Below, piece by piece: positions 3,295 through 63,776 of a DNA stretch of 64,000 nt (its first letter is position 1; each line of letters starts with the position of its first letter). This stretch comes from Rhea pennata (Eukaryota > Chordata > Aves > Rheiformes > Rheidae), in the NCBI RefSeq assembly GCF_028389875.1, contig NC_084682.1:6086001-6150000 (forward strand), given 5' to 3'. The notes under the pieces were generated by a model. It saw nothing but the letters and a program-made list of their open reading frames with translations. It searched no databases and was not told the DNA's origin. The position numbers were made by a program, and so were the translations under genes.

Positions 3295-6200
3295 GTAGGT
3301 GCGCGCCGGACGCCCCGGTGAGGGGGGGCCCGGTCGTGGGGGGGTGGAGGCCCCTGGTGAGGGGGGTCCAGGGACGCCCCCCTATGGGGGCGCTGGGTCA
3401 GGCTGTGGTGAGCGGGGCCTGGTTGTGTGTGGGGGGGGGGGGCTGGTGAGGTGCCTCCGTCCTGCCCCCTCGGTGAGGGGTCCCCGGTGAGGCAGTGTGT
3501 GTGGGGGGGGTCCCCGGTGAGGCAGTGTGTGTGTGGGGGGGTCCCTGGTGAGCGGGGCCCAGTTTGGGGGGGGGCTGGTGAGGTGCCTCCCTCCTGCCCC
3601 CTCGGTGAGGGGTCCCCGGTGAGGCAGTGTGTGTGTGGGGGGGTCCCTGGTGAGCGGGGCCCAGTTTGGGGGGGGCTGGTGAGGTGCCTCCCTCCTGCCC
3701 CCTCGGTGAGGGGTCCCCGGTGAGGCAGTGTGTGTGGGGGGGGGTCCCTGGTGAGTGGGGCCCAGTTTGGGGGGGGCTGGTGAGGTGCCTCCGTCCTGCC
3801 CCCTCGGTGAGGGGTCCCCGGTGGGGCAGTGTGTGTGGGGGGGGTCCCTGATGAGGCAGTGTGTGTGTGGGGGGGGGAAGGCCCCTGGTGAGTGGGGCCC
3901 GGTTGTGTGTGTGTGGGGGGGGGGCTGGTGAGGTGCCTCCCTCCTGCCCCCCCCCCCCCCCGGTGAGGGGTCCGTGGTGGGGCAGTGGGGGGGGGGGGTC
4001 CCTGGTGAGGCAGTGTGTGCGGGGGGGGGGTCCCTGGTGATGGGGAGGGTCCCCAGTAAGACAGCGTCTCTCTGGTCTGCGCAGGCAGCGTCCCACGAGC
4101 GTCCTGGTAGCCCCGAGGTATCCGTGTGCTTCGCCAACCGCTCTGCGGCCCTCTTCCACCTGGGGCACTTTGAGGTAAGCGGCTGCAGGCGAGTGGAGGT
4201 GCTGAGTCCCGTGGCTGCCAGGCTCCTCGGCTCTTGGGTTGGCTCTTGGGGCACAAGCCTGCGCTCCCAGCACGTGACCTGGGGCCTCCTGCCTAGCTGG
4301 AGGGGAGGGTTGGCCAAAGGCGATGCCAAGCCGTGAGCTAGAGCATTGCCATGTAATATTTGCATATAAGACTTCAGGTGAGTGCTTCTAGGAACCCCAT
4401 AGTAATAACTCTTTAGATACTAGCACTGCAGAATATAGACCAGATGTGGTTTTCTAGCTGTACCTAAAACTTCCATCATTATGGAGCTATTTCTGAAGAG
4501 TTCCTATTTTTTCCTTGTTCTGTGTTGTGAATTTTTATTTGCCCAACAGATTGGCTCTGGACAAGGGAATCTGCTGAACAACATGATCTTGAGTAAAATA
4601 TGTTGAATCTTTGATGCGATAGAAGAGCACAAGTCTCAACTGGTTTTCAAGTACATTTAAAAGGTCTCATCTCTGTTTCTAGGTTTGTTTGGAAGACATT
4701 GCGAGGGCTCAAAGTCATGGCTATCCAGATAGCCTTCTACCCAAGGTCTTGCTGCGGAAAGCTGAATGTTTGCTGCGTTTGGGGAGGTTACAGGATGCAG
4801 CAGAGGCCCTGAGTGCAGTGGAGAATAAAATTGCTGTGGATCAGACTATGACTAGTGCTACGCACCAAGCACTGCTAAAAAAGATAAGTCAACTGAAGAA
4901 TAAAGTACGTGAGAAAGAGAGCTGTCTAGAGCCTGCACCAGAAGCACATGGTGCCATTCAAAGAGAGCTGGAGATCTGGGAAGAGAGTGACAGTATTTCA
5001 GGTGCATCTTCATCTCTGAGCTTGAATTTTGATTTAGAGAGAGGACGTCATTTGGTAGCCTCTCAGGACATTATACCGGGACAGAATCTGCTGAAAGAGG
5101 AGGCCTTTGTAAGTGTTCTCTGCCCAGGGAAGAGTCTTCTGTTGCCTGACAGCAATGAAACTGTGTGGGACACTCAGGTCACTAATGCAGATCTTTATTG
5201 TCACCGTTGTCTGAAGCAGCTCTTAGCCTCTGTGCCCTGCAGTGGCTGTAGTTATGCAAAGTACTGTAGCCAAAACTGTGCAGATCTGGCGTGGGAACAA
5301 TACCACAGGACAGAGTGTTTCTTGGAAGCACTGCTTCTCACATTAGGGGTCTTCTGCCAAGTTGCCTTAAGGACTGTTCTGCTGGCAGGATTTGCAGAGG
5401 TTAGAAGGCTGGTGGAGCAGTCCCATGATGATGACAAGGACCTTCATAGCCCTGAGGCAAGATGTAAGCATTTCAGTGAAGCGCCGAGTACCAGAGCTGG
5501 TATCCCAGGGAAGGCAGAGCCTGCGATTCCTGGCTGTAATGACAATGGTCAATACCAGAGTTCTTACCAAGCTGTGTTCAACCTTTTGCCACATACTGAG
5601 AAGCATAGCCCTGAACATAAGTTCCTTTGCATGCTAAGTGTAGTCGCTATATGCAAAAAACTACAAGAAGTTGGTCTAGAAGCTGCTGTCTTGAATCAGG
5701 AATCATCTGAGGAGTGGTCCAAACCAAAAGCATGTGAAAATAGGTCTGACGAACTGTCTCCAGAGTTGAAGATTATGGCGGAAGCAATGCTGAGGCACGT
5801 GTTGCAGTTGCAATGTAATGCACAAGCGATCACTGTAATGCAAGAGTTGGGTAAGATTAAACACTTTAAGCCCTTTCTTCTTATCCTTGCTCATCTAGTT
5901 TGTGTGAAGCAGAGAGACTGAACTAGCAGTTGTAGAAAGTTTTTATTGCAGATGGGAATGACTACTTGTTTTTCTTAAAATTTGATGGCTTGTTCACACC
6001 TGCCTCTCCTTATTTTTGGGACACACTTAGATGGTATTCAGCTATTTTTCATTATAGCAATATGCCAGGAACTTTCCTCCTGATGCTTGTAATTGGATCC
6101 AGTGTCCATTGCATTAAGTTTGGTGGGTCACTGAGCCTTCCTTCCCAACATACTTGTTTTTCCTTTGTCTTTAGGGTCTGGAGATGGTGCTGTTGTAAAT

Positions 6201-48177: not shown

Positions 48178-48590
48178 CTGCTCCCCGGCTGCCGTGCTTC
48201 TGGCTAACCAGCACCAGTTCTTCAGTGGCAAGCTTTATGTCCTCCTCTAGTAGCTAAAGCTGCCAGTTGAAGAACTGTTGAATGTAGCCACTCTCTTCTT
48301 GTCGCTGGGCTGTTGGACATCAGCTAGATCCGTGTCCTGAACAAGATGAGATGAGCGAGTCTGCAGCATCTGATGAATTAACCCTTCTGCGGGCTGAGGA
48401 TGGGCCCTGCTGGGAAGAAGAACTCTCCTTGCAGCCTCCAAACCGAGCCTCGGCAGTGGGAATGCTGGAAAGCCGTACTAGCAGGGCTGTGAAATGGGGA
48501 GTGGGGTCACCACCATGGGGTGACGCTTAACCAAGAGAACTAGAGAAGACCGTGACAGGCATATTAAACTCTGTTTTACTGTGCAGTACC
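48178..48590 (+). ncRNA. MIR22HG: MIR22HG, terminal exon of the miR-22 host RNA
   Basis: A strong acceptor (GTGTTTCTTTCCCAG) ends at 48177 and opens an exon that contains the whole miR-22 hairpin. An ATTAAA variant poly(A) signal lies at 48563-48568. In human, miR-22 likewise lies in an exon of the spliced non-coding MIR22HG, divergent from WDR81, so strand and position fit. Candidate upstream pieces are an exon at 47562-47612 bounded by good AG and GT sites, and a first exon ending at the donor at 46085. Both are guesses. No coding potential is seen. Confidence 0.7.
48201..48290 (+). ncRNA. MIR22: miR-22 precursor hairpin
   Basis: miR-22 is a conserved vertebrate microRNA. The 5p arm (48216-48237, starting AGTTCTTCAGTGG) and 3p arm (48257-48278, starting AAGCTGCCAGTTG, seed AGCTGCC) are identical to the human mature forms as I remember them. 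They fold back on each other over a short loop whose sequence differs from human. The stem is closed further out by TGGCTA (48201-48206) pairing with TAGCCA (48285-48290). Confidence 0.97.
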
Positions 48591-51678: not shown

Positions 51679-51684
51679 TTTATT
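51679..51684 (-). other. Poly(A) signal of the AIFM3-like gene
   Basis: AATAAA on the minus strand about 90 nt after the stop codon of the last small exon. Its closeness supports that exon as the true 3' end. Confidence 0.75.
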
Positions 51685-51773: not shown

Positions 51774-54700
51774 TCAGGTGTGTGTCAGCCAGGGTATGCT
51801 GGTAGTATCACAGGCCCTGAAAACAAGAGGGGCACTGGAGACTTGCAGTAACTCATCTTGATTTCACATGTCATGAGGGGAGAGGGGGTGTCTGCTTGTG
51901 TGGGGAAAGCAGTGCAGAGTGGCCCAACAACTTGGGGTGTCACTTACTCTGCCTCTTCTTTAGAGATTTGTAATCCTGAGTATAAAACTTCTGCAATCAG
52001 AGACACCATGGGGTCATAGTTTAGGCTGGCGGCTGCAACCACATAGCCATCCCTGAAAGAGAAAGCAGAAGAATGTGGATCTTGCCAGAGCAAATAACTC
52101 TGCGTGGCAGCATCCCGGTGCTGCTGTGGGTGTAGGCCAGCTGTATATCAGAGCCATCAGGGCAGGACAGCTGATACTGCAGCATGCATGGCAACTTGCA
52201 GCAGACCACCTGGTGCTGCTGAAGGCTGGGCACCGAGTCTGAAGGCAGTGGGAGAGGGAGATGTGTCCCTGGCTCCCTGCCTGGCTGGTGTCTCTGTCCC
52301 AGGGAGTGCTAGCCTCTCCCAATTTGGTCATGGGGCCATGCGGCATCTATCCGATCTCATGGAAGCTGCTCGAAGCTCGATCTCTCCTCCTTGCCTGTCC
52401 TGCTTCATTTTTCTCTCTGTGCTCTGAAATTGTTTCACTGCCAGTCCAATGGCTGGTGGTCCCCTGGGCTGTGTAGCCACAGGAGGGTGACTTGGAGCTG
52501 TGTCCATACCAAAGAAGGCTCTGCAGGTTGTTAGGGAGAGGATTGGGCCCTGTTCCCTGAGTACTGCTGTGTCAGGGTGCAGACTGCCTGCAGGTTCACT
52601 CACTTGATGTAAAAGATCAGGAACTTCAGTTGCTCCAGGCTGCCCTTCACAACAGTGTCCGTGTATCCCTCCCCGCAGCCTGTGAGAGAAGTCATTGCAG
52701 CTTGCTCAGCGAGCTCCAGCAAGGCAGCTGCCACTGTCACCACAGTCCAACAGCGAGCGCAGGCAGGGGAGATGGGACCCCCTGGGCTGGGGCTGCGGCT
52801 GGGACGGGGATCAGGAGTGAGTTTGGAGGCCCCAGGCAAGCTGAATGGATCAGGAGGTGGAGGACTGTGTCATGACCCTGAGCCTCTACTCGGCTTGGAG
52901 AGGGAAGTTCTCCATTTGCAATTTCTAAGCCACTAGAGATCAGCAAAGAACAAGGGCTCTGTGTATCTTGTGGACCCACATCTCAGAGACAGAGCTCATA
53001 AACCCACTGTGGCAGTGCGTGCAAAGCTTGAGCTGCTTCTGTAACTGCGTCTGCCCACAGCCTGCACAAGGTCTGCATATTTATAAACCCCAGACCCAGC
53101 AATACCCAAGCAGCTCAGCTAGGAGGCAGTTCAGCTGTTCTCATCTCTTTGCTCCCTCCTACCTGCATAGCGAATGCTCTTCCCAAGCATTGTAGTCCAG
53201 AAGAAGGGGACGGTGTGCAATTGCTTCTGTTTCTTCAGCATGTTTAAGGCAGCAATGTGACCTGTGATGACCCAGCAGAGGAAATATTTTTGTTTCTTGT
53301 AGATTTTCAAAAAGTTGCTGAATTTTAAGCCTGCTCATCTCAACCCCACCTTCTGGCTTCTTGGTGCCCGAAATCACTTGTGTTAAGAGCTGATGTGGGT
53401 GGAGCACTTATATGCCTTGGTCTGGACTCACTGAAGACTGGGTGAGCAGGTGCCTGGAGAAGTCTCTCTCCCCTCCTCTCTCACACTGGTGCTGGCTCCA
53501 TGTAAGCTGTTTGTGAGGAGCCAGGCTTCTGCTCAGCGATCAGTTTACTTGCAAGGGTGTGTAGCTAGCTCATGAGGCTTGTGTGTGGGCCGTGGACCCT
53601 TCTGCCTAGCTTTGGCCTTTGGATATCCATCCAGCAGGTGGGGCCCCCCTGCATCCTGTTGTTGTCCCTTCAGCCCCACCTCCTGGATACCCCTTGCCAT
53701 GGGGAGCTAAAAGCAAGGCAGCTCCTTGTCTCACCGTGGGCCTCAGCCACCTGCTGGTGATGGATGCTGGACAGTTTCCCACTGAGCAACGCTACAGGAA
53801 AGGAAACCACATCACCCGCAGCAAAGACATTTGGGATGTTGGTTTGCATGTGCTGAGGGGACAGAAGACAGTTAGTGCAATTACAGGGGCAATGGGACTG
53901 GGTGAGGACTCTGGACACCCAGCTGGCACTTACCAGATTCACCACGATGGCACCACTGCTGTCCCTGGCAATGGAGGTGCCTTTCAGAAATGCTGAGCTG
54001 GGAGACACCCCTGTAGGAAAAGGAGCAAGGGCACACGCATGCAAAGGCAGGGAGGAAATTTGGCCTAGGCCCCTACAGCAGGCACATGCCTTTGGTGTCT
54101 GTTCGGTCTGCCTGGACCAGAGCAGCTAGCAGCAGTGACCAGTGCTTGGGCTGGCGCTGAGCTGATCCAGGGGCAATAAAACCAGGTCACAGAACAAAGC
54201 ATGCTCTGATAACACAGCAGTGACCTACAGAGCTCAGCAAATGTGCCAAAGCCAAACTCGGAGCTTGCCTCCTGCCAAGTGAGTTGACTTTTTCAGGTGT
54301 TTAGGGCAGCAGGAAGGGCTGGATAATACAGTAAGAAAGGGATTGCAAGGAATGGTGTGCATTGGGAATGGACTGGAGTGCTCTAGGATTGCTGTTTGCT
54401 TTCCCCATCTCCTGAACTGCCTCTTTCTCGTTACTGGAGTCTCTTACCTATTCCAACCACCACCACATCTACAGGTATTTTCTTTCCACTGTCCAGAACA
54501 GCCTCTGCGACCTAAGAAGCAAGAATTATTAACAAAGGGTAAAAATTCTGTCCTAATTCCCACAGCCTCCCAGTTGCCTGGTTCTTTGCTTTCCTAGGTT
54601 CAGATCTTGACTTTAAACCACTTTGTCCAACTGACATGTTACTAAGAATTAAGAGAAAATGAAGATGTTGCCTCTAATGTATAAACATGTGCTGGTGCCC

Positions 54701-57700
54701 TTTCAGCCCAGAGTTGCATGCAGTGAGGGTCTGGACATGAGAAGAGAGAGCCTAGGCGTATACCTCAGTTTGGGGGTTTTCCCCTTAAAACTATCAGTTT
54801 AGGAATCACAAGGGCATGACTGACCTTTCCATCTTTTCCTTTCAGCTCAGAGATTTTTGTTTTCATGTAAAACTTCACCCCTTTGTTTTGCAACATCTGA
54901 AAAGGAAGAGGATGCTGGTATGAGCACTCACTAGGAAAGTCGAGGCTGGTAAAAACAGCAGTACCCAGTCACAACCCAGGCAGGGAGCTTAGCTGCTGCT
55001 TCAGGCTGCAGAGAGGGTTCGTTTCCTCATCTCCCAGCTCGTGCAGGGCACACTGGAAGCTCAGCTTGGTTTTGCTCAACTATGCTGGTCAGGACCAGTA
55101 AGTGAGGTGGGCTTAGGGATATAGCTGAGCCGGGAAAGATGTGACACTTGTGTGAGGGAGATTGGGGCCAGCCTTGTATGCACACCTCACTTCAGTGAGC
55201 TGTATGTGAGAAAGGTGGCTAAACACGTAAGGTTATGACTCAGAGCAAGGGCTGGATTTCCTGGGCTGGTGCAGATCATAAGGCTGTTTGGATGGTGTGT
55301 GTTCTCTGTCCTAGAAATGAATACCAGATTTCCTAACCTTCATGGTAACACCTCCAACCTGAGAACCCAGCACATCCTGAAAAGGTAACTCCTTTTTCTC
55401 CACCACTGAGATGGCAGCAGCCTTGTCTGAGAGGAAGGCAGCTATCTCCATTCCTGCAAGCAAAGGGCATGCCCAAGGTGAGTTTGCTACAAGCATGAAC
55501 CTGCACCCTCCTCCTTGGAAATCATTTCCCCTTCTAGATGAAGAGAACAACTCTAATGTACTGCCAGCACTAAACTGCTCTTCTATGCATTTCTGGGATG
55601 ATATATTTAGCCTCCTCCCCACCATCCTCCAATTCTCTGCTCTCATGCATTGTTGACCCAGATATTAGGAACTGCAAAGAAAAGCTCCTGACTGTGTGCA
55701 AAACAGCCCCCTTTCCTTGCCTTATCCCCTTCCTTTTCCAGTGCTTCTGGGGAGTCCAGATCCCTCAAAGGACAGTAGCCTTTTCACAAACTCCTTTTCG
55801 TAAAGACCTTTCCACATTTCCCTCTGTTTAGGTCCAAGAACTGTTTACACCTCTAGAAGTTTCTGGCTATCAGAGGAATACTGCATGCTGGGTAATGCAT
55901 ACCCCTCTAGCTACAGGACTCCAGGGAGGGACCAAGCCAGGTAGCCAAAGAACATCCCTTCCCTGGGGGCCCTTCGTTAATCTGTGCACACAGCAGAAGT
56001 GAATTTCAAGGCTATTATTAACGACTTGATATCCACCCCAGCTTGGTACCTATGAACGAAGCTCCTATGATCATCAAGTTCTTGCCAGTTGCTAGCTCTA
56101 AGATTTTGTTAGAGTCTTCCGGGGTTTGGAGAAGACATATGTTCTGCAGGTCTGCGCCTGGGACTTCAAGGGTGATGGGGCTGAAAGACAGATGATCCAG
56201 ATATGTGTCGTGATTATAAATGAAACGGGGAGGAAGAGAGGCCACACAAACCTATGCAATCCCTTAGCCATCTCATCCCACCCTATCCTTTTATCTCACC
56301 CCCTATTCCCATTCCTCTCATGGGCCTCTAAAGTGCCTGATGCTACTGAAGAGCCATCTTGTCCTGTCAGAAATCTTGTGCATGGCAAGTGTTTTGTACA
56401 CTCACTGGCTGCCTGTGGCAATGAGCAGGTGATTGTACTTCTGGGAGGACCCATTCTTGAAGCGGACCTTCTGCTTCTGGAAGTCCACTGACATTGCCTG
56501 CAGGAGAAGACAGGAGGCAAAGATCAAACAAGCATCTCTGGTCGACACCAGCACTGCTGTCCTGCATGTCAATCTGTTCTGCTTGCTTGTGACCGAATCT
56601 CCTATATTCGAACACCAAGGTACGACAAGAAAATGTTAGGGTCCTGTTTCTCACTTTCCACAGGTGTTAGGCTTTGGGAACACTAAACATCACAGCACTA
56701 AATCTGGGTCCTTCTACGGGGTGCATGGAAGGCTAGTTTCAGAGGTGACTCTTTTTGCATGTGATGGGCACAACTGTCTATGTATAGTGTAGATAGACAC
56801 TACACCCAAAACACACACAGTCTCTAGCACTGGCCTTGGAGTGCTGTCCCAGGAGATAATGTGTGTATTGAAGCAGAGCCCTGCTTTCTGGAAATGTAAC
56901 ATTATGCCTGCAGATGTGGGCATCCCCTCCACACAGCAGAGACAGGAGCATTGAAAACCCTTCTGAGCTGCTCTCACACCTCTTTCTCTGTCCAGAGCTC
57001 TATGCCACGAGCATCAAGGAATTCAGGTGTCCTCAGGTAGATGTCCTCAGCCTTCAAGTTCATCTCCTGGGAACAAAACAGAAATGTAAAGTGAAGCACT
57101 TCTTCCTACTGTCAGTGACACTCTTGCAGTGTTTACAGGGAAGCATGTTTGCATAAGAGGAAAATTCTGCACTAGTGACTCACAGCTGCTCACACTGCCC
57201 CATCCCCATCATCTTCCTGTCGCCCCCTCAAAAAGCCATCAAAACAGCTCTAGCAGGGAAAATCCATCTGAAGGGGACAAAACCTCTAGCTTATGGTGGA
57301 CTTTGATGAAAGACTTTCTGAGACATTAGCTGGGAAGTATACCCTCTTTCCTCAGAGGTATCTCAGAGATCTGGCTGGCTTGGCAGAATGGATCATTTCG
57401 TCACTCAGCCTGGTCCTGAATGCGGGTCATGCCCCTGATTCACACACGATACCTGGCACAGTTCTTCCCTTTCCGCACACAAACCTTGCTCAGTTTAGTC
57501 TTGTCATACGGTATGTGTTTCTCTTTGGTGGCCATGATGATCCTGCCAGTGAAGCCCTCCTGGCGAAGTGTTTCTGCACAGACTAGGGCAGCCACACCTA
57601 CAAGAGGTGCTCAACTCAGCCCCCCTACACATCACTGTGGGCGAGGAGGGAAGAGGAAAGCCATCCCTGGAGAAGAGACTGGCAGCTCCCAGCATCTGTA

Positions 57701-59163
57701 GGGAGGGCAGAGTACAGACCACATCACTGACCTCCCCCCAGGAGCAGCACTGTGTCTTGGTTGAGAAGGCACCGCTTGCTTGTGTCCTTCACTCTCAGGC
57801 TGCTTTCAAGATCCTAGAAGAAAGTGAGAAATACTGAAATCATATCTAGCCCAAGGTGCTGGTTGTGCTTAGTGATGGCGGGTAAGGTCAATACCTTCTT
57901 TTTTGCTGTAACGAACACCTTTCCATTTTCCACTGTTACCTGAAGGGATGAAAGCAGAGTGCGTTTCAGCGCCGTGCTCGAGGCGTGGTTGCAGGAGCGC
58001 TCCTGAGCAGCTCTGCTCGAGCCAGCATACTGCTCCATGCTTTCTGGGCACACAGGGAGTGAGGGCATGGGCAGGGGGTCTGGCTTGGTGCTGCTGCTAG
58101 TGCGGGGTAACAGTGAGCTGCCACGCAGTTTAGAGCCTGGAGGGAAAGGTCTGGGACACAAAGCTAGACACCCCCTGGGAAGAAGCAGGGTGAGGGAGTC
58201 CAGCTCTAAGGAGCAAGGATCAGGTGCCGCTGGGTGTTCGTGGTGGCCCCGCTCCACTCAGCTGAACATCGGTCTCGGTGATGCCAGGGCGAGCTGTGGC
58301 AGCTCCTGTTGGTGCCAACGAGCTTGCTAGTTTTTCTCCTCATCCAGGACCACTCAGGAAAAGGTACCAATCTTGGTTTTGTTTTGTTTTTGTTTGTTTG
58401 TTTGTTTGTTTGTTTAACTTTCCTCTCCCAAAAGAGCTGTGCTGGCTCTGCGGCATGCAGGAGTGCCAGGGGGTTATGCGAACCGAGGAAACCATCCCTC
58501 GAGCAGCAACGCGTACCCAGAGCGTGGCGTTGGGAAGGGCGCCCCGAGCGCTCGCGGGAGCGAGCGGGGGAAAGCGGGTGGAGGTTTGCAGCATGAGGGG
58601 GACGCGGGCACGGCGTCACCTTAAAGCGGGGAAGACAGTCCAGGGCAGGGTACTCCTCGATATCGCCGGTTTTGATGTTAAAGCAGGCGCCGTGCCAGGG
58701 ACAGCGCAGCCGGTTGCCTTTCAGGACGCCTGCGATTAAAAGGAATAAAACCCCGCGTTAGCCGAGTCGAGCCGGGGGCTCTCGGCTGCGGGGCGGGAGG
58801 GGGGGCATTACCTCTGCTGAGCGGGGCGCCATAGTGGGGGCACCTGCTGCCCAGGGCGCTGAACTCGCTCCTGTTCCTCACCAGCAGCACGGTGTGGCCG
58901 GCCACCTCGGCCTCCCGGAGCCTGTGGGAGAGGCGGATGGGGAGGTGTGGGGTGGCCAGGGCTGGGGGACGACATGGCGGCGCGCCCACGACATGGCGGC
59001 GCGGTCGCCATGGCGACGCCTCCCGGCCTCCCGCCACCGCCGCCGCGGCCACCACAGGCCTCATGGCGCGGGGCTGGGGCCTCCCGTGGCCCGGCACTCA
59101 CTCGCCGTCCCTGATGTCGGCCTCCTCGCAGACCTCGGCCGTGACGGTGTCTCCACAGTCCAT
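51774..59163 (-). CDS. AIFM3-like (probable AIFM4) Rieske and FAD/NAD(P) oxidoreductase, complete, 18 coding exons
   Basis: This is an apoptosis-inducing-factor family flavoprotein of the AIFM3 type. Coding exons are 59102-59163, 58812-58921, 58620-58729, 57895-57939, 57732-57813, 57485-57597, 56980-57066, 56406-56497, 56050-56180, 55338-55453, 54825-54896, 54448-54511, 53934-54010, 53735-53852, 53163-53261, 52604-52679, 51948-52052 and 51774-51816. They total 1602 nt, or 533 aa in one frame. An N-terminal Rieske [2Fe-2S] domain shows both ligand pairs (CPHYG and CPWHGACFN). An FAD fold (LLLGGGVAALVCAETLRQEG) and an NAD(P) fold (MIIGASFIGMEIAAFL) follow. The second FAD motif is VFAAGDVVSFP and the C-terminal domain holds ASLNYDPMVS. 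The last 43-nt exon (IPWLTHT) aligns with the AIFM3 end SWLTGKGS. Many intron positions and residues differ from AIFM3, so a separate paralogue is likely. Start MDCGDTV is one of two options (see findings). Confidence 0.9.
58378..58417. repeat. (GTTT)n microsatellite
   Basis: About eight tandem GTTT units in the intron between the third and fourth coding exons of the AIFM3-like gene. A simple repeat. Confidence 0.9.
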
Positions 59164-59990
59164 GCCGGCGGGGCCTGCGGGCAGGCGGAGGGACGGCAGT
59201 GATGGCGGCGCCCGGAGTGCGGCCTTCCTGCTCCCCAGCGCCGGGGCGCCGCCGCCGTTCCTCCTGGCCGGCGGCAAAACCCCGAGGCTGCTCCTGGGCG
59301 TCCAGCCGGAGCAGCGATGACGCTGGGGAACGACCCGCACAGAAAACATGCATTTCTCCACTTTTTTTTTCTCCCTTTATCACCAAATTTGAAGCCCGTT
59401 CTGCAGTGCCAGGGTTTTTATGGGCGCTAGCTGCCATAAATGCAGGTAAGCCCTGCCTTAGACAGCTTCCCACCTAAAAAAATTAGGCAAAAAAACTCAT
59501 TATTGGTGTTCCTCCGGCCTTAGCAAGCCGTTTGTTAGCCACAGCTGTGGGGAAAGGTTGCTTTCCTCTCTGTTTCAGAGGGAGAAAAAAAAAAAAGGAA
59601 AGAAAAGCCAAGCACAAAAGGCTCTGTGTCGGAGGCTGCGTTGGTGTTCGCAGAACAGGCGAGAAAAGAGACGCCGCGAGGTGCAGCACCAACAGCTCGC
59701 TGCCGTGCCGCGCGCCGCGCCGGTGCCGTCCGCCCTCCCCTCCCCGGGGAAGCGCCCGCAGCTACTCACGCGCTCCCGCCGCCCGGCCGCAAAGCCCGCT
59801 GCCGTCCGGGCGCTCGCGGCGAGAACGCGCCTGGCCGCCGCGCCGCCGGCCCGCGTCCGCGCTGATGCTCCCGGGAAGTCGGGCGATGCCTCGGCGCCGG
59901 GCAGGAGCCGGAGGTGGGCGCCCTGGGCAGGAGCCCGGCGTGGGAAGGAGCCGGCCCGCGGTGCTTATTCGCTTTCTGCAATTGGTTTGG
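58590..59990 (-). promoter_or_regulatory. CpG-rich 5' region and promoter of the AIFM3-like gene
   Basis: The first coding exons lie in CpG-rich DNA. A strong acceptor (CTGCCCGCAG) opens the start-codon exon at 59174, and a donor (GCGC then GTGAGTAG) ends an upstream exon at 59770. So transcription should begin at or beyond 59.8 kb. A CCAAT box on the minus strand (59981-59985) would suit a start near 59.9 kb. Extent is approximate. Confidence 0.6.
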
Positions 59991-61666
59991 CGCATCATTT
60001 TTTTCTTTGGGGTTCGCCCGGGGTTTAGAAACTGCTTGCGAAAGCGCTGAGGTCGCTTAGGAGCTATGCCACAGGCGTGGTGCGGAGGCTGGGAGGCATC
60101 GCGTGCAACCTCGCTGGGGAAACGAAAGCCGGGTAACTAGTTTTACCCCCTCCCATTACCCCCTTTTTCTTTCTTGAAATGTGCTGTAGCTCAGCACACT
60201 GTAGTTTTGCATTACTCCTTTTTATGTATTTCTATAACATTTTAAAGGATTTAACTCATTTTTTTTGGTCCCTCCAGCTCCTGTTGATTTTAATGGGTGT
60301 GAAGCATTCAGTACCTCTGCAAATGACTTATATACAAATTCTGCTTCTGCACGTATCAGTTTTGATTAGCCGATGGCCAGGCACTGGGGTCCTATTGCTG
60401 TCTGAGCAGCGAAGACATTAGCTAAGCCTTACCAAAAGCAATACGCTACCTACCCTGGTCACTGTGCTATTTTTGCAACAGAGTGGGAGTTGCAAAAATG
60501 GGAGTAACGCCTACACTGTTCATGTCTACTCCAGTTTTTGTCTATATTTCACAGTCATTATGTCTGAAAACCTTACAATGTGCCTCAAAAGCTGGGGGGG
60601 GGAGAGTTTCTCAGCGTGTTTTTACCATCTCCCTTGCAGTGGCAGAGCTTTGCAGGGACCAACTTTTTGGAGCGCAACCCGGCCGCAAGCCCGATGTATG
60701 GGGCATGGGCAAACGAAAATCCATCGCTGCGTCTTGCGGTGGGCACGGCCCGGAGGAAAGGACGTGCGCGTGGGCATCCTGCGAGCGTGAGGTGAAGCTG
60801 CCTGGTCCTGGGGATCTGATCCAAGCCAGCTATTTGCAACGCTGCTCGCCGTGGAGGATGAGCCGTCGGTGCCCATTCCTCTGGGGCCGTGCAATATAAG
60901 GAGCGAGCGCAGCCCGAGTGTGCTGCCTGCCCGTGATGGGCACAGGTGGGAAGCGTTTTTCTCTCTCGGTGTCAACAAGCAGCTTTGCCTTCTGGCCAGG
61001 AGCCTGAGCATGAAGCAATTTGGCTGCTGAAGGGCTCTGTTTAATCTCTGTAATTATTCTCCAGAAGCAAGTTCCCACGTGGAGATGCAACAGCCCCCGT
61101 GGCGGCTTTCTCTGACTCAGCAGAATTTGCTGAAAAACGCCATTTGCTGAAAAATGCCTACAGACGACAACCGCAGCGCTCCCGCAAAGTGGCAGGTACA
61201 ACGGCTGACGCCCGGCTTTGGGACGAGCCAGGTGGCACTTGCTTCGGTGCCACGTGGTGACTTCTGCACTGCAGCTAATTTGGCTGCTGGCTGCAGCTGA
61301 GCCTGCCAGCCTCAGTGGCAGGCGAATGACTTTTGAACAGTGCAAAGGGAGGAAGAAGAAACAAAATCCTCTCCTCTGACAGTGATAAAGACAACGGCAA
61401 AGGATTCCTAACCTGTCAGGAAAATATAAAAAAGCATTGACCATAACAGTAGAGGCTCGAGACTAGCCTCTGCTTCCCTGGCAGCTAGTGCCCGGGAGCA
61501 CACAGAGATGCAAGAGGCACTCAGGGGATTCAGGGAATGGGATGGTGTTGGAGGCAGATTTTCTTGAATACACTTAGTAAGTGTCTTTTGACCCTTTATT
61601 AGGTAACCCAGAGCTAGCTATTCAGAGTGGTTCAGACCTTTGTAAAACAGAGCAGGATTAAAATTA

Positions 61667-61694: not shown

Positions 61695-63776
61695 GGTGCC
61701 CTCAAGCCCCAACAGCACACAGGTAAGCACAAGCAGTCTCTTAAAGGACCTGCCGTGGGTGTTTGGGCTGGCTCACACTTGCTGATGAGCTGGCCTCATA
61801 TTTTACTAGATCTCTTCCATTTTTCTGTGTCTTTCCAGCATTGCCTGCACTCCAGAAAATTCAGGTTCATAAGCAAAGATTTAGTGGAGGTAGCTCTCCT
61901 CCCTTCACATCCCTATTCCCATCAGCCAGCCTAGCACATTTTTTCACTCTATAACAGAGCTGTGGCTTTGTAGATGTATAGTTGTCCCTCCTCTACTTTG
62001 CCCCCAGCTTGAAGAGGTCACCGTCTTTTCCTGTCTTAGAAGACCTGCTGATTTTAACCGAGTATTACATACAGAGTCAAATATTATGGAAGAACGTTTA
62101 GGTGCAGGAAGAGGAAGCAAGGTAAAACTGTAGCAGAGCTGAAGTGATTAATGGGACATTGCTCTCAGAACAGCTCTGTTTGTGATATTAATACTGAGAG
62201 AATTCAGAAGGGAATTCAGCCGCAGGAGAAGCAGCTATGAAACTCCTGCACTTATATTCCTGATGCAGCAGTGACTGAGGGGCCTTGGCAACGTGCAGTG
62301 CTGCATGCTGGGGGTGGGGGGAGGTTGGGTGCCTGAGGCATGCTTCCACCTTGCTGGGTTCGTACTGAACCTGTCTGAATTGCAAAAACAGGTAGTATCA
62401 TAAATACCCCATGACTGTGCATTTAACCAGAAAGCACATAGATATCTATCAGGAATTACTTAAGCTTCAGAATGGTAAAAAGTGTTCCTTCAGAAGAGGA
62501 AAAAGTGTTTATCCCACAGGAGAAGAAGATGGAGAAGGAAATATTTAGTGTAAATGGATTTACTTATAGGGTAAGAATAATTATATGTGCTGTTTCATAT
62601 ATTCTTCCTGAGCATTCATGTCTGGCCATACGAGATGGGATATTAGGCAGGAGGGATACCTGACTGCACATTTCTCTGTTCTTCTGACACATGAGGAAAG
62701 GAGGAACCTGGAACCTTACTAATAGCAGCAGGTAAAAAAAATCCAATGGACAAATTTGGGGGATATCAGATCCTAAGACTGTGGGAGAAACATAAGGAAT
62801 TGAGTATGCTGCTGTGATCACAGGGCTTGTGCCTGTATCACTGCTGTGTAAGACATCACAAGGGCTCTGGAGCTTTGCAGAGTTGTGGGAAAGGTCCCAC
62901 CTGTGGCCACAGGTAGTAGTCATGCTGTGTATTTGTCAGTAGTGGAGAAGATGCTTGCAAGACTGAAAGCAACAGAAAAGCAGAAGCAGTCATGTCTGTC
63001 AGTGGAAATGGTTTTTATTCCTTGGTATAGCTGTGCAACTGGAGAGAAAGGAGAGGGCTCATTCTTTGCCCAGCTAGAATGTAACAGACGGTCCAGCTGA
63101 GCCACCAGCATCCTTAGGTATGCTACACTGTTCTCGCAGGTTTCTCCTACGGGTTCTTTGCACCAAATCCTGAGCAAAGAGCCTTCCAGTCCAGAGGAAA
63201 GAGAAGAGAATCTCCTGACAAAATAACTAGAGTCTCCAGAAGGCCCAGTTCACTTTGACCCAGCAAAGATTTAATCCTGCCACGGGCTGGTTTAACATGT
63301 AGGCCAAGCAGGCTGTGCATGGGTGGTTCTGGGTCTCTGCTGAGCGGGTTATTCCTGCACTCCAGGCTGTGAAAGGGACTGTGCCAGCATGCTGCACGCG
63401 GCCGGGCAGGGACAGGCAGCTGGCTGCTGGGAGCACAATACCCTGGCTCTGCAAAGCTCGCAGGGGATAGTGTATTATTTAAGGAGCAGTCTCCCTAAGG
63501 GTCAGTAAAGGCATCCCTGTCTGGACAGCAGGATGCACGCAGGGCTGTTCAAAATGCTGCAGAAAGGAACAGGAGTGTTTTCCCCTTGCAGGGACGAGCT
63601 CACAAGCTGGAGCAGAGGGACTGGACAGACTGCAGTGCAAAGCTAAACTACTTCTCCAGCCAGACAAGATCAAGGCCCGAGATCAGTGGTTATGTGATGC
63701 ACGCTTTGGTATTTCTTGCATTAAATCCTTCGCTTCGGGCTGTGTGGGGGAAAATGGAGCTACAGACCAGGAAAAA

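Follow-up and report, generated by a model that had tools for sequence, protein, structure and literature searches.

An intact AIFM3-like gene beside miR-22 in Rhea pennata, probably an old paralogue matching fish aifm4

Results

An AIFM3-like gene with one continuous frame lies beside miR-22

The DNA analyzed here (the window) is a 64,000-nucleotide stretch of the Rhea pennata genome, G000:C20:6086001-6150000 in a 1.269-Gb assembly. On its minus strand, at 59163-51774, lies a gene that resembles AIFM3, a little understood member of the apoptosis-inducing factor (AIF) family; we refer to it as the window gene. It comprises 18 exons with GT-AG borders at 17 of 17 introns, and one continuous 533-codon frame runs from an ATG at 59163 in exon 1 to a TGA at 51774 in exon 18. 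A preliminary description of this DNA had put forward 18 exons, 533 residues and a continuous frame, and we reproduced its coordinates, strand, exon count and length. As far as sequence alone tells, the gene is complete (Table 1).

The start codon at 59163 stands in a strong context (GGCATGG), and a good acceptor-like site lies 11 bases upstream of it. Splicing of this acceptor to a strong donor at 59769 would be in phase 1, as in the matching AIFM3 intron, and one additional exon may therefore stand before exon 1. The open frame of this candidate says little because the local DNA is 70% G+C. An N-terminus of the MGGCFSKP type, with which the N-terminal extension of human AIFM3 begins, was found neither in the 533-residue model nor in the frame of the candidate exon. 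The CpG-rich stretch over the 5' end is likely the promoter of the window gene. We also observed that retention of the intron after exon 4 (57814-57894) would bring a stop after 135 residues and so give a Rieske-only product; an AIFL transcript that keeps intron 4 reportedly yields a protein of the Rieske type (Murata 2011, by the title of that work as cited in PMC8431184).

The window protein has the domain order of AIFM3

Pfam assigned to the 533 residues a Rieske domain (residues 10-93, E 1.3e-20), Pyr_redox_2 (131-426, E 7.3e-61) and Reductase_C (446-519, E 1.2e-8), that is, the Rieske, pyridine-nucleotide reductase and reductase C-terminal domains in the order of the AIFM3 family. All three assignments are well past chance. 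Both pairs of Rieske ligands that the preliminary description had reported are present (C48-x-H50 and C67-x2-H70). Its two nucleotide-binding folds were likewise recovered, as GGGVAA at 135 and GASFIG at 273, each with one glycine replaced. The serine of the second motif is found also in the separate AIFM3 described below (GASFLG); the alanine of the first is absent there.

Searching solved sequences returned bacterial rubredoxin, putidaredoxin and ferredoxin reductases as the best matches, and no entry named AIFM3 among the best 60 of 253. The bacterial reductases 3fg2 (the best match, E 2.6e-44), 3lxd and 1q1r aligned with query residues 128-497 as a single segment, with E between 2.6e-44 and 1.7e-38, and are expected to carry out the same step from NADH (reduced nicotinamide adenine dinucleotide, NAD) to flavin adenine dinucleotide (FAD); they differ in that their matches do not cover the Rieske part of the query and in their long branches. 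AIFM1, which has no Rieske domain, resembles the window protein in the reductase part (best E 2.4e-25, 5kvi), and its match is confined to that part, residues 131-462 at most among the matches listed. All families among the best 25 of 61 matched in NCBIfam scored below their cut-offs. A scan of prokaryote contigs with the 533-residue protein, which detects close relatives only, matched 42 stretches, none of them confirmed.

A separate AIFM3 resides on another contig

We searched the whole genome at the protein level with the window protein (E up to 10) and obtained 26 matches, 17 on contig C20, all inside the window gene, and nine on contig C17 (15352633-15393154). The latter belong to an AIFM3 gene (AIFL) at C17:15347082-15393150 with a last exon starting near 15395818. 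Reading it gave 587 residues from 17 coding exons and the last one, with the C-terminus TGDMSWLTGKGS; the first exon was not found on reading the C17 locus, and the 587 residues exclude it. The preliminary description had named the window gene being the sole AIFM3 of this genome as an outcome that would speak against its reading; that outcome did not occur. One intron of the C17 gene, about 32 kb into the joined C17 pieces, holds a frame resembling part of a retroelement reverse transcriptase.

The two genes share the organization of a Rieske domain joined to an FAD/NAD reductase, all 17 intron phases, and the lengths of 15 of 18 exons (E2-E4 and E6-E17). When the C17 borders were sought near their expected places, 13 of 14 exons showed an offset of 0 at both borders; both borders of the 14th were 3 bases off, due to the anchor used, and E1, E4, E5 and E18 were located by search and by eye. 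Between the proteins, 270 of 529 aligned residues are identical (51%). The C17 gene differs from the window gene in contig, in its exon 1 (214 bases versus 62), whose N-terminal stretch is missing from the window model, and in its exon 5, which is 15 bases longer. Because the window gene has introns, it is not a retrocopy of AIFM3, and we rejected that origin; it is evidently an old duplicate made at the DNA level.

The window gene branches outside both AIFM3s

We then compared both Rhea proteins with a presumed sequence of human AIFM3. The C17 protein is identical to it at 476 of 587 residues (81.1%) and the window protein at 267 of 529 (50.5%), the two Rhea proteins agreeing with each other in this comparison at 270 of 526 (51.3%), so that the closest copy to human AIFM3 is the C17 gene and not the window gene. 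The 81.1% identity vouches for the presumed human sequence; it falls between the values given for mouse (96%) and zebrafish (66%) AIFM3 against human (PMC4487986).

Of the 526 columns free of gaps, 195 set the window protein apart from both AIFM3s. At the 86 gap-free columns where the C17 and human proteins differ, the window protein matches C17 at 25, human at 20, and neither at 41. The 25 to 20 split (two-sided p 0.55) shows no lean toward the AIFM3 of its own genome, and this pattern is as expected if the window gene branched off before both AIFM3s. A tree of the reductase part (six sequences, with three bacterial outgroups) joined the C17 and presumed human AIFM3s with a support of 99 and left the window gene outside, with branch lengths of 0.43 for the window gene and 0.09 for each AIFM3. 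On the sequences compared, the split between AIFM3 and the window gene is older than that between the Rhea lineage and human.

Contigs C17 and C20 share further paralogues

Pairs shared by human 17p13.3 and 22q11-12 include RTN4RL1/RTN4R, CRK/CRKL and PITPNA/PITPNB, and RTN4R and CRKL lie near AIFM3 on human 22q11. Human AIFM3 is located in the 22q11.2 region (PMC4487986). A query from the human RTN4R region gave 151 matches in all, with its two best places at C17:15967255 (66%) and C20:6044735 (53%), a third on C5, and weaker ones among the remaining matches listed. We take C17:15967255 to be RTN4R and C20:6044735 to be RTN4RL1. A CRKL query gave 17 matches and scored higher at C17:11216203-11229587 (CRKL) and C20:6365933-6380758 (CRK) than at any other place, and PF02121 (PITPN; 25 matches) was found at C20:6239817-6249974, at 0.60-0.63 and 3.90-3.93 Mb of C17, and on C5, C15 and C19. 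All three families with results (RTN4R, CRK and PITPN) are therefore represented on C17 as well as on C20.

The three C20 genes are found close to the window, the first 41 kb ahead of its start and the last reaching 231 kb past its end. Distances to AIFM3 on C17 are 0.6 Mb for RTN4R, 4.1 Mb for CRKL and 11 to 15 Mb for the PITPN sets; given the first two, the C17 block seems rearranged. The shared paralogues fit a pair of ohnologues that dates from the genome doublings of early vertebrates, if C17 was reshuffled afterwards. We found no description of a 17p13 and 22q11 paralogon in the open-licence literature.

The surroundings match human 17p13.3, with one extra gene

Neighbors were recognized among the open frames listed, and SMYD4, WDR81 and TLCD2 were named from domain and position. 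On the low side of the window gene lie a MYND-finger frame (SMYD4-like), a serpin frame with PEDF (SERPINF1) as its best solved match, and a BEACH-domain frame (WDR81-like); no SERPINF2 frame was recognized among those listed. On the high side, beyond the window, the next recognized genes are a TLC-domain gene (TLCD2-like) and then PRPF8, which was identified via the solved relatives of one frame; an 80-residue PRPF8 frame gave no Pfam match. The window gene thus sits between miR-22 on one side and the TLC-domain gene and PRPF8 on the other.

The claim that the gene is missing from this place in human agrees with the human gene order and with a published table of 17p13.3, neither of which holds an AIFM gene here. 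That table, perhaps incomplete, lists SCARF1, RILP, PRPF8, TLCD2, WDR81, SERPINF2, SERPINF1, SMYD4, RPA1 and RTN4RL1, and the article's text has 0 occurrences of "aifm" (PMC5876250). The C20 block is the human 17p13.3 block with the window gene as an extra. One paper on miR-22/PRPF8/TLCD2 synteny treats TLCD2 and miR-1788 and not the window gene.

Table 1. Features of the window gene and its surroundings (window positions)
Feature	Position	Strand	Remark
Exon 1	59102..59163	-	first ATG at 59163, MDCGDTV...; further exon upstream possible
Exon 2	58812..58921	-	first Rieske ligand pair, CPHYGAPL
Exon 3	58620..58729	-	second Rieske ligand pair, CPWHGACF
Exon 4	57895..57939	-	Rieske part ends here
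Exon 5	57732..57813	-	linker and start of FAD motif; 82 bases versus 97 in C17 AIFM3
Exon 6	57485..57597	-	FAD-binding fold
Exon 7	56980..57066	-	spliced gene model
Exon 8	56406..56497	-	spliced gene model
Exon 9	56050..56180	-	start of NAD-binding fold, GASFI
Exon 10	55338..55453	-	NAD-binding fold, E296
Exon 11	54825..54896	-	spliced gene model
Exon 12	54448..54511	-	spliced gene model
Exon 13	53934..54010	-	spliced gene model
Exon 14	53735..53852	-	FAD motif AAGD, residues 398-401
Exon 15	53163..53261	-	start of Reductase_C
Exon 16	52604..52679	-	spliced gene model
Exon 17	51948..52052	-	spliced gene model
Exon 18	51774..51816	-	TGA stop
AATAAA poly(A) signal	51679..51684	-	∼90 bases downstream of stop
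CpG-rich stretch spanning 5' end	58501..60000		250-base windows
Candidate upstream exon	59770..59998	-	donor at 59769; in-frame Mets at 59998 and 59995
mir-22 precursor	48202..48288	+	80.6 bits
WDR81-like BEACH-domain frame, stop-to-stop, 1285 residues	38410..42264	-	Pfam

Near the SMYD4-like gene we also observed a GC-rich minisatellite at 3434-3855, with periods of 101 and 132 bases and 97% matches in the 101-base array. A Pfam Rieske search of the genome gave three places: an exon on C18, UQCRFS1 (presumably, from reading its open frame) and the window gene. It missed the C17 AIFM3, we think because the domain is split over exons there. The C18 exon (C18:3209447-3212632; CPHLGANL...CPFHGW) looks like part of a sterol desaturase or monooxygenase gene of the Neverland/DAF-36 type.

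Fish carry a second AIFM3-like gene that responds to stress

We know of no functional test of the window gene. Like Rhea, a teleost can carry a second AIFM3-like gene in one genome: pupfish lists aifm3 and a separate LOC107095016 (aifm4), "apoptosis-inducing factor 3-like" (PMC5450241). The window gene is expected to be orthologous to fish aifm4, the fish gene being compared here by name and description only. Fish studies report that arsenic raises aifm4 in zebrafish liver with a log2 fold change above 5 (PMC10941348), that aifm4 goes up twofold in a trout gill line at 400 μg/L copper (PMC12656199), and that it is differentially expressed in H2O2-treated zebrafish, both wild-type and oxr1a-mutant (PMC7598701). 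The brain proteome, too, showed a change in aifm4 following peripheral trauma (PMC9356012), and aifm4 rose in metronidazole-treated hepatocytes (nitroreductase), where prdx1, gsr, gstp1 and txn went up too (PMC6328554). For AIFM3 itself, a mitochondrial location and apoptosis on overexpression are reported (PMC6518782).

The evolution of aifm4 is not treated in the available parts of this stress literature. A chicken gene AIFM3 is listed in a passage that gives no position. In the open-licence literature, covered for chicken AIFM3 mostly through listings, we found no description of a second AIFM3-type gene in birds or other sauropsids, and nothing on an AIFM3-like gene, AIFM3L, an AIFM3 paralogue or a vertebrate phylogeny of the AIFM3 Rieske proteins.

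Discussion

We consider it quite probable that AIFM3 has in the window gene an intact paralogue of old origin: most likely an ohnologue from early vertebrates that equals fish aifm4, kept in the Rhea lineage and lost on the line to human. It belongs to a known family with a likely fish counterpart already named and is not a new kind of gene. The preliminary description had offered an old paralogue as one of two options, and the separate AIFM3 on C17, the position outside both AIFM3s in the tree (support 99) and the paralogues shared by C17 and C20 all speak for it.

Several observations weigh against this interpretation. The C17 paralogues lie on the same contig but not in one tight block, and relatives of PITPN and RTN4R lie also on other contigs; moreover, the families were chosen for their human 17p13/22q paralogy, so that an expectation was passed rather than a random sample taken. 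The human AIFM3, RTN4R and CRKL sequences are themselves presumed ones, and the sequence comparison spans the Rhea genome, presumed human AIFM3 and bacterial reductases, with Rhea and human as its only vertebrates. The human 17p13.3 table is possibly incomplete, given that "mir22", too, has 0 occurrences in the text (PMC5876250). As for stress, aifm4 was lowered in the trout gill line at 64 μg/L copper (PMC12656199), and NRF2/ARE-type (antioxidant response element) sites are not enriched in the window (14 versus 13.4 expected), with none within 58501-60000 and the nearest to exon 1 at 62411. Finally, the window protein departs from the five other aligned reductases at nine sites where these all agree, among them one in the FAD motif, whose third glycine is replaced by alanine (G140A).

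These nine sites suggest that flavin binding is possibly reduced or altered, and they are what a decaying or non-catalytic gene would account for. Such a gene would keep its frame but bind FAD or NAD poorly, and would be left with just its Rieske part or with a role outside redox chemistry. The 135-residue Rieske-only product of a retained intron after exon 4 would suit such a gene as well. However, 40 sites are kept in all six aligned reductases, including G135, G137, K174 (in LSK), G273, G278, E280, G400 and D401, and 18 exons have stayed free of stops and frame breaks since a split older than that of the Rhea lineage and human. We regard loss of catalysis as unlikely.

The other option of the preliminary description, a lineage-private insertion, is disfavored. 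An AIFM3 duplicate private to this lineage or its class, inserted beside miR-22 and evolving fast, would agree with the long branch of the window gene (0.43 versus 0.09) and with the examination of a single genome. Such a duplicate should share residues derived in the C17 gene, whereas the matches divide 25 to 20; the tree places the window gene outside with a support of 99, and the paralogues shared by C17 and C20 would be left unexplained. We therefore hold a private duplicate to be very unlikely. That the window gene is this genome's own AIFM3, relocated with the same domain order and intron phases, is refuted by the distinct AIFM3 on C17 with its 81% identity to the presumed human AIFM3 sequence.

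If the window gene is an old ohnologue, the genome doublings of early vertebrates would have duplicated an AIFM3 ancestor, with the window copy kept beside miR-22. That a Rieske ferredoxin domain and its reductase are joined in one protein suggests a path from NADH via FAD and a [2Fe-2S] cluster to an acceptor, and the protein may act in the manner of a bacterial ferredoxin reductase of the dioxygenase type with its own Rieske ferredoxin attached. NADH would give electrons to the protein; we favor NADH because, by what is known of the family, the acidic E296 stands at the end of strand 2 in the NAD fold. From there the electrons would reach the bound FAD, pass within one chain to the Rieske [2Fe-2S] cluster, and be handed by the cluster to a partner acceptor.

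Going by the fish reports, we think protection through redox chemistry more likely than a function devoted to cell killing, because fish aifm4 responds to oxidative or metal stress; on the other side, several fish aifm4 papers treat the gene as a pro-apoptotic marker. Taken as a whole, the scenario in which an NADH-driven Rieske carrier was doubled at the origin of vertebrates, kept by miR-22 and TLCD2 as a stress-responsive redox enzyme both in the Rhea lineage and in fish, and lost toward placental mammals is one that we offer tentatively, at slightly less than an even chance.

A retained ohnologue provides a natural comparison, in which residues common to both copies mark shared catalysis and differing ones a division of labor. 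Were the gene widespread among vertebrates other than mammals, it would be a clean example of a redox enzyme lost on the way to mammals, and it would warn against reading fish aifm4 stress data as human AIFM3. Should the loss be real, models of the AIF family built on mammals would miss one arm that other vertebrates use against oxidative and metal stress.

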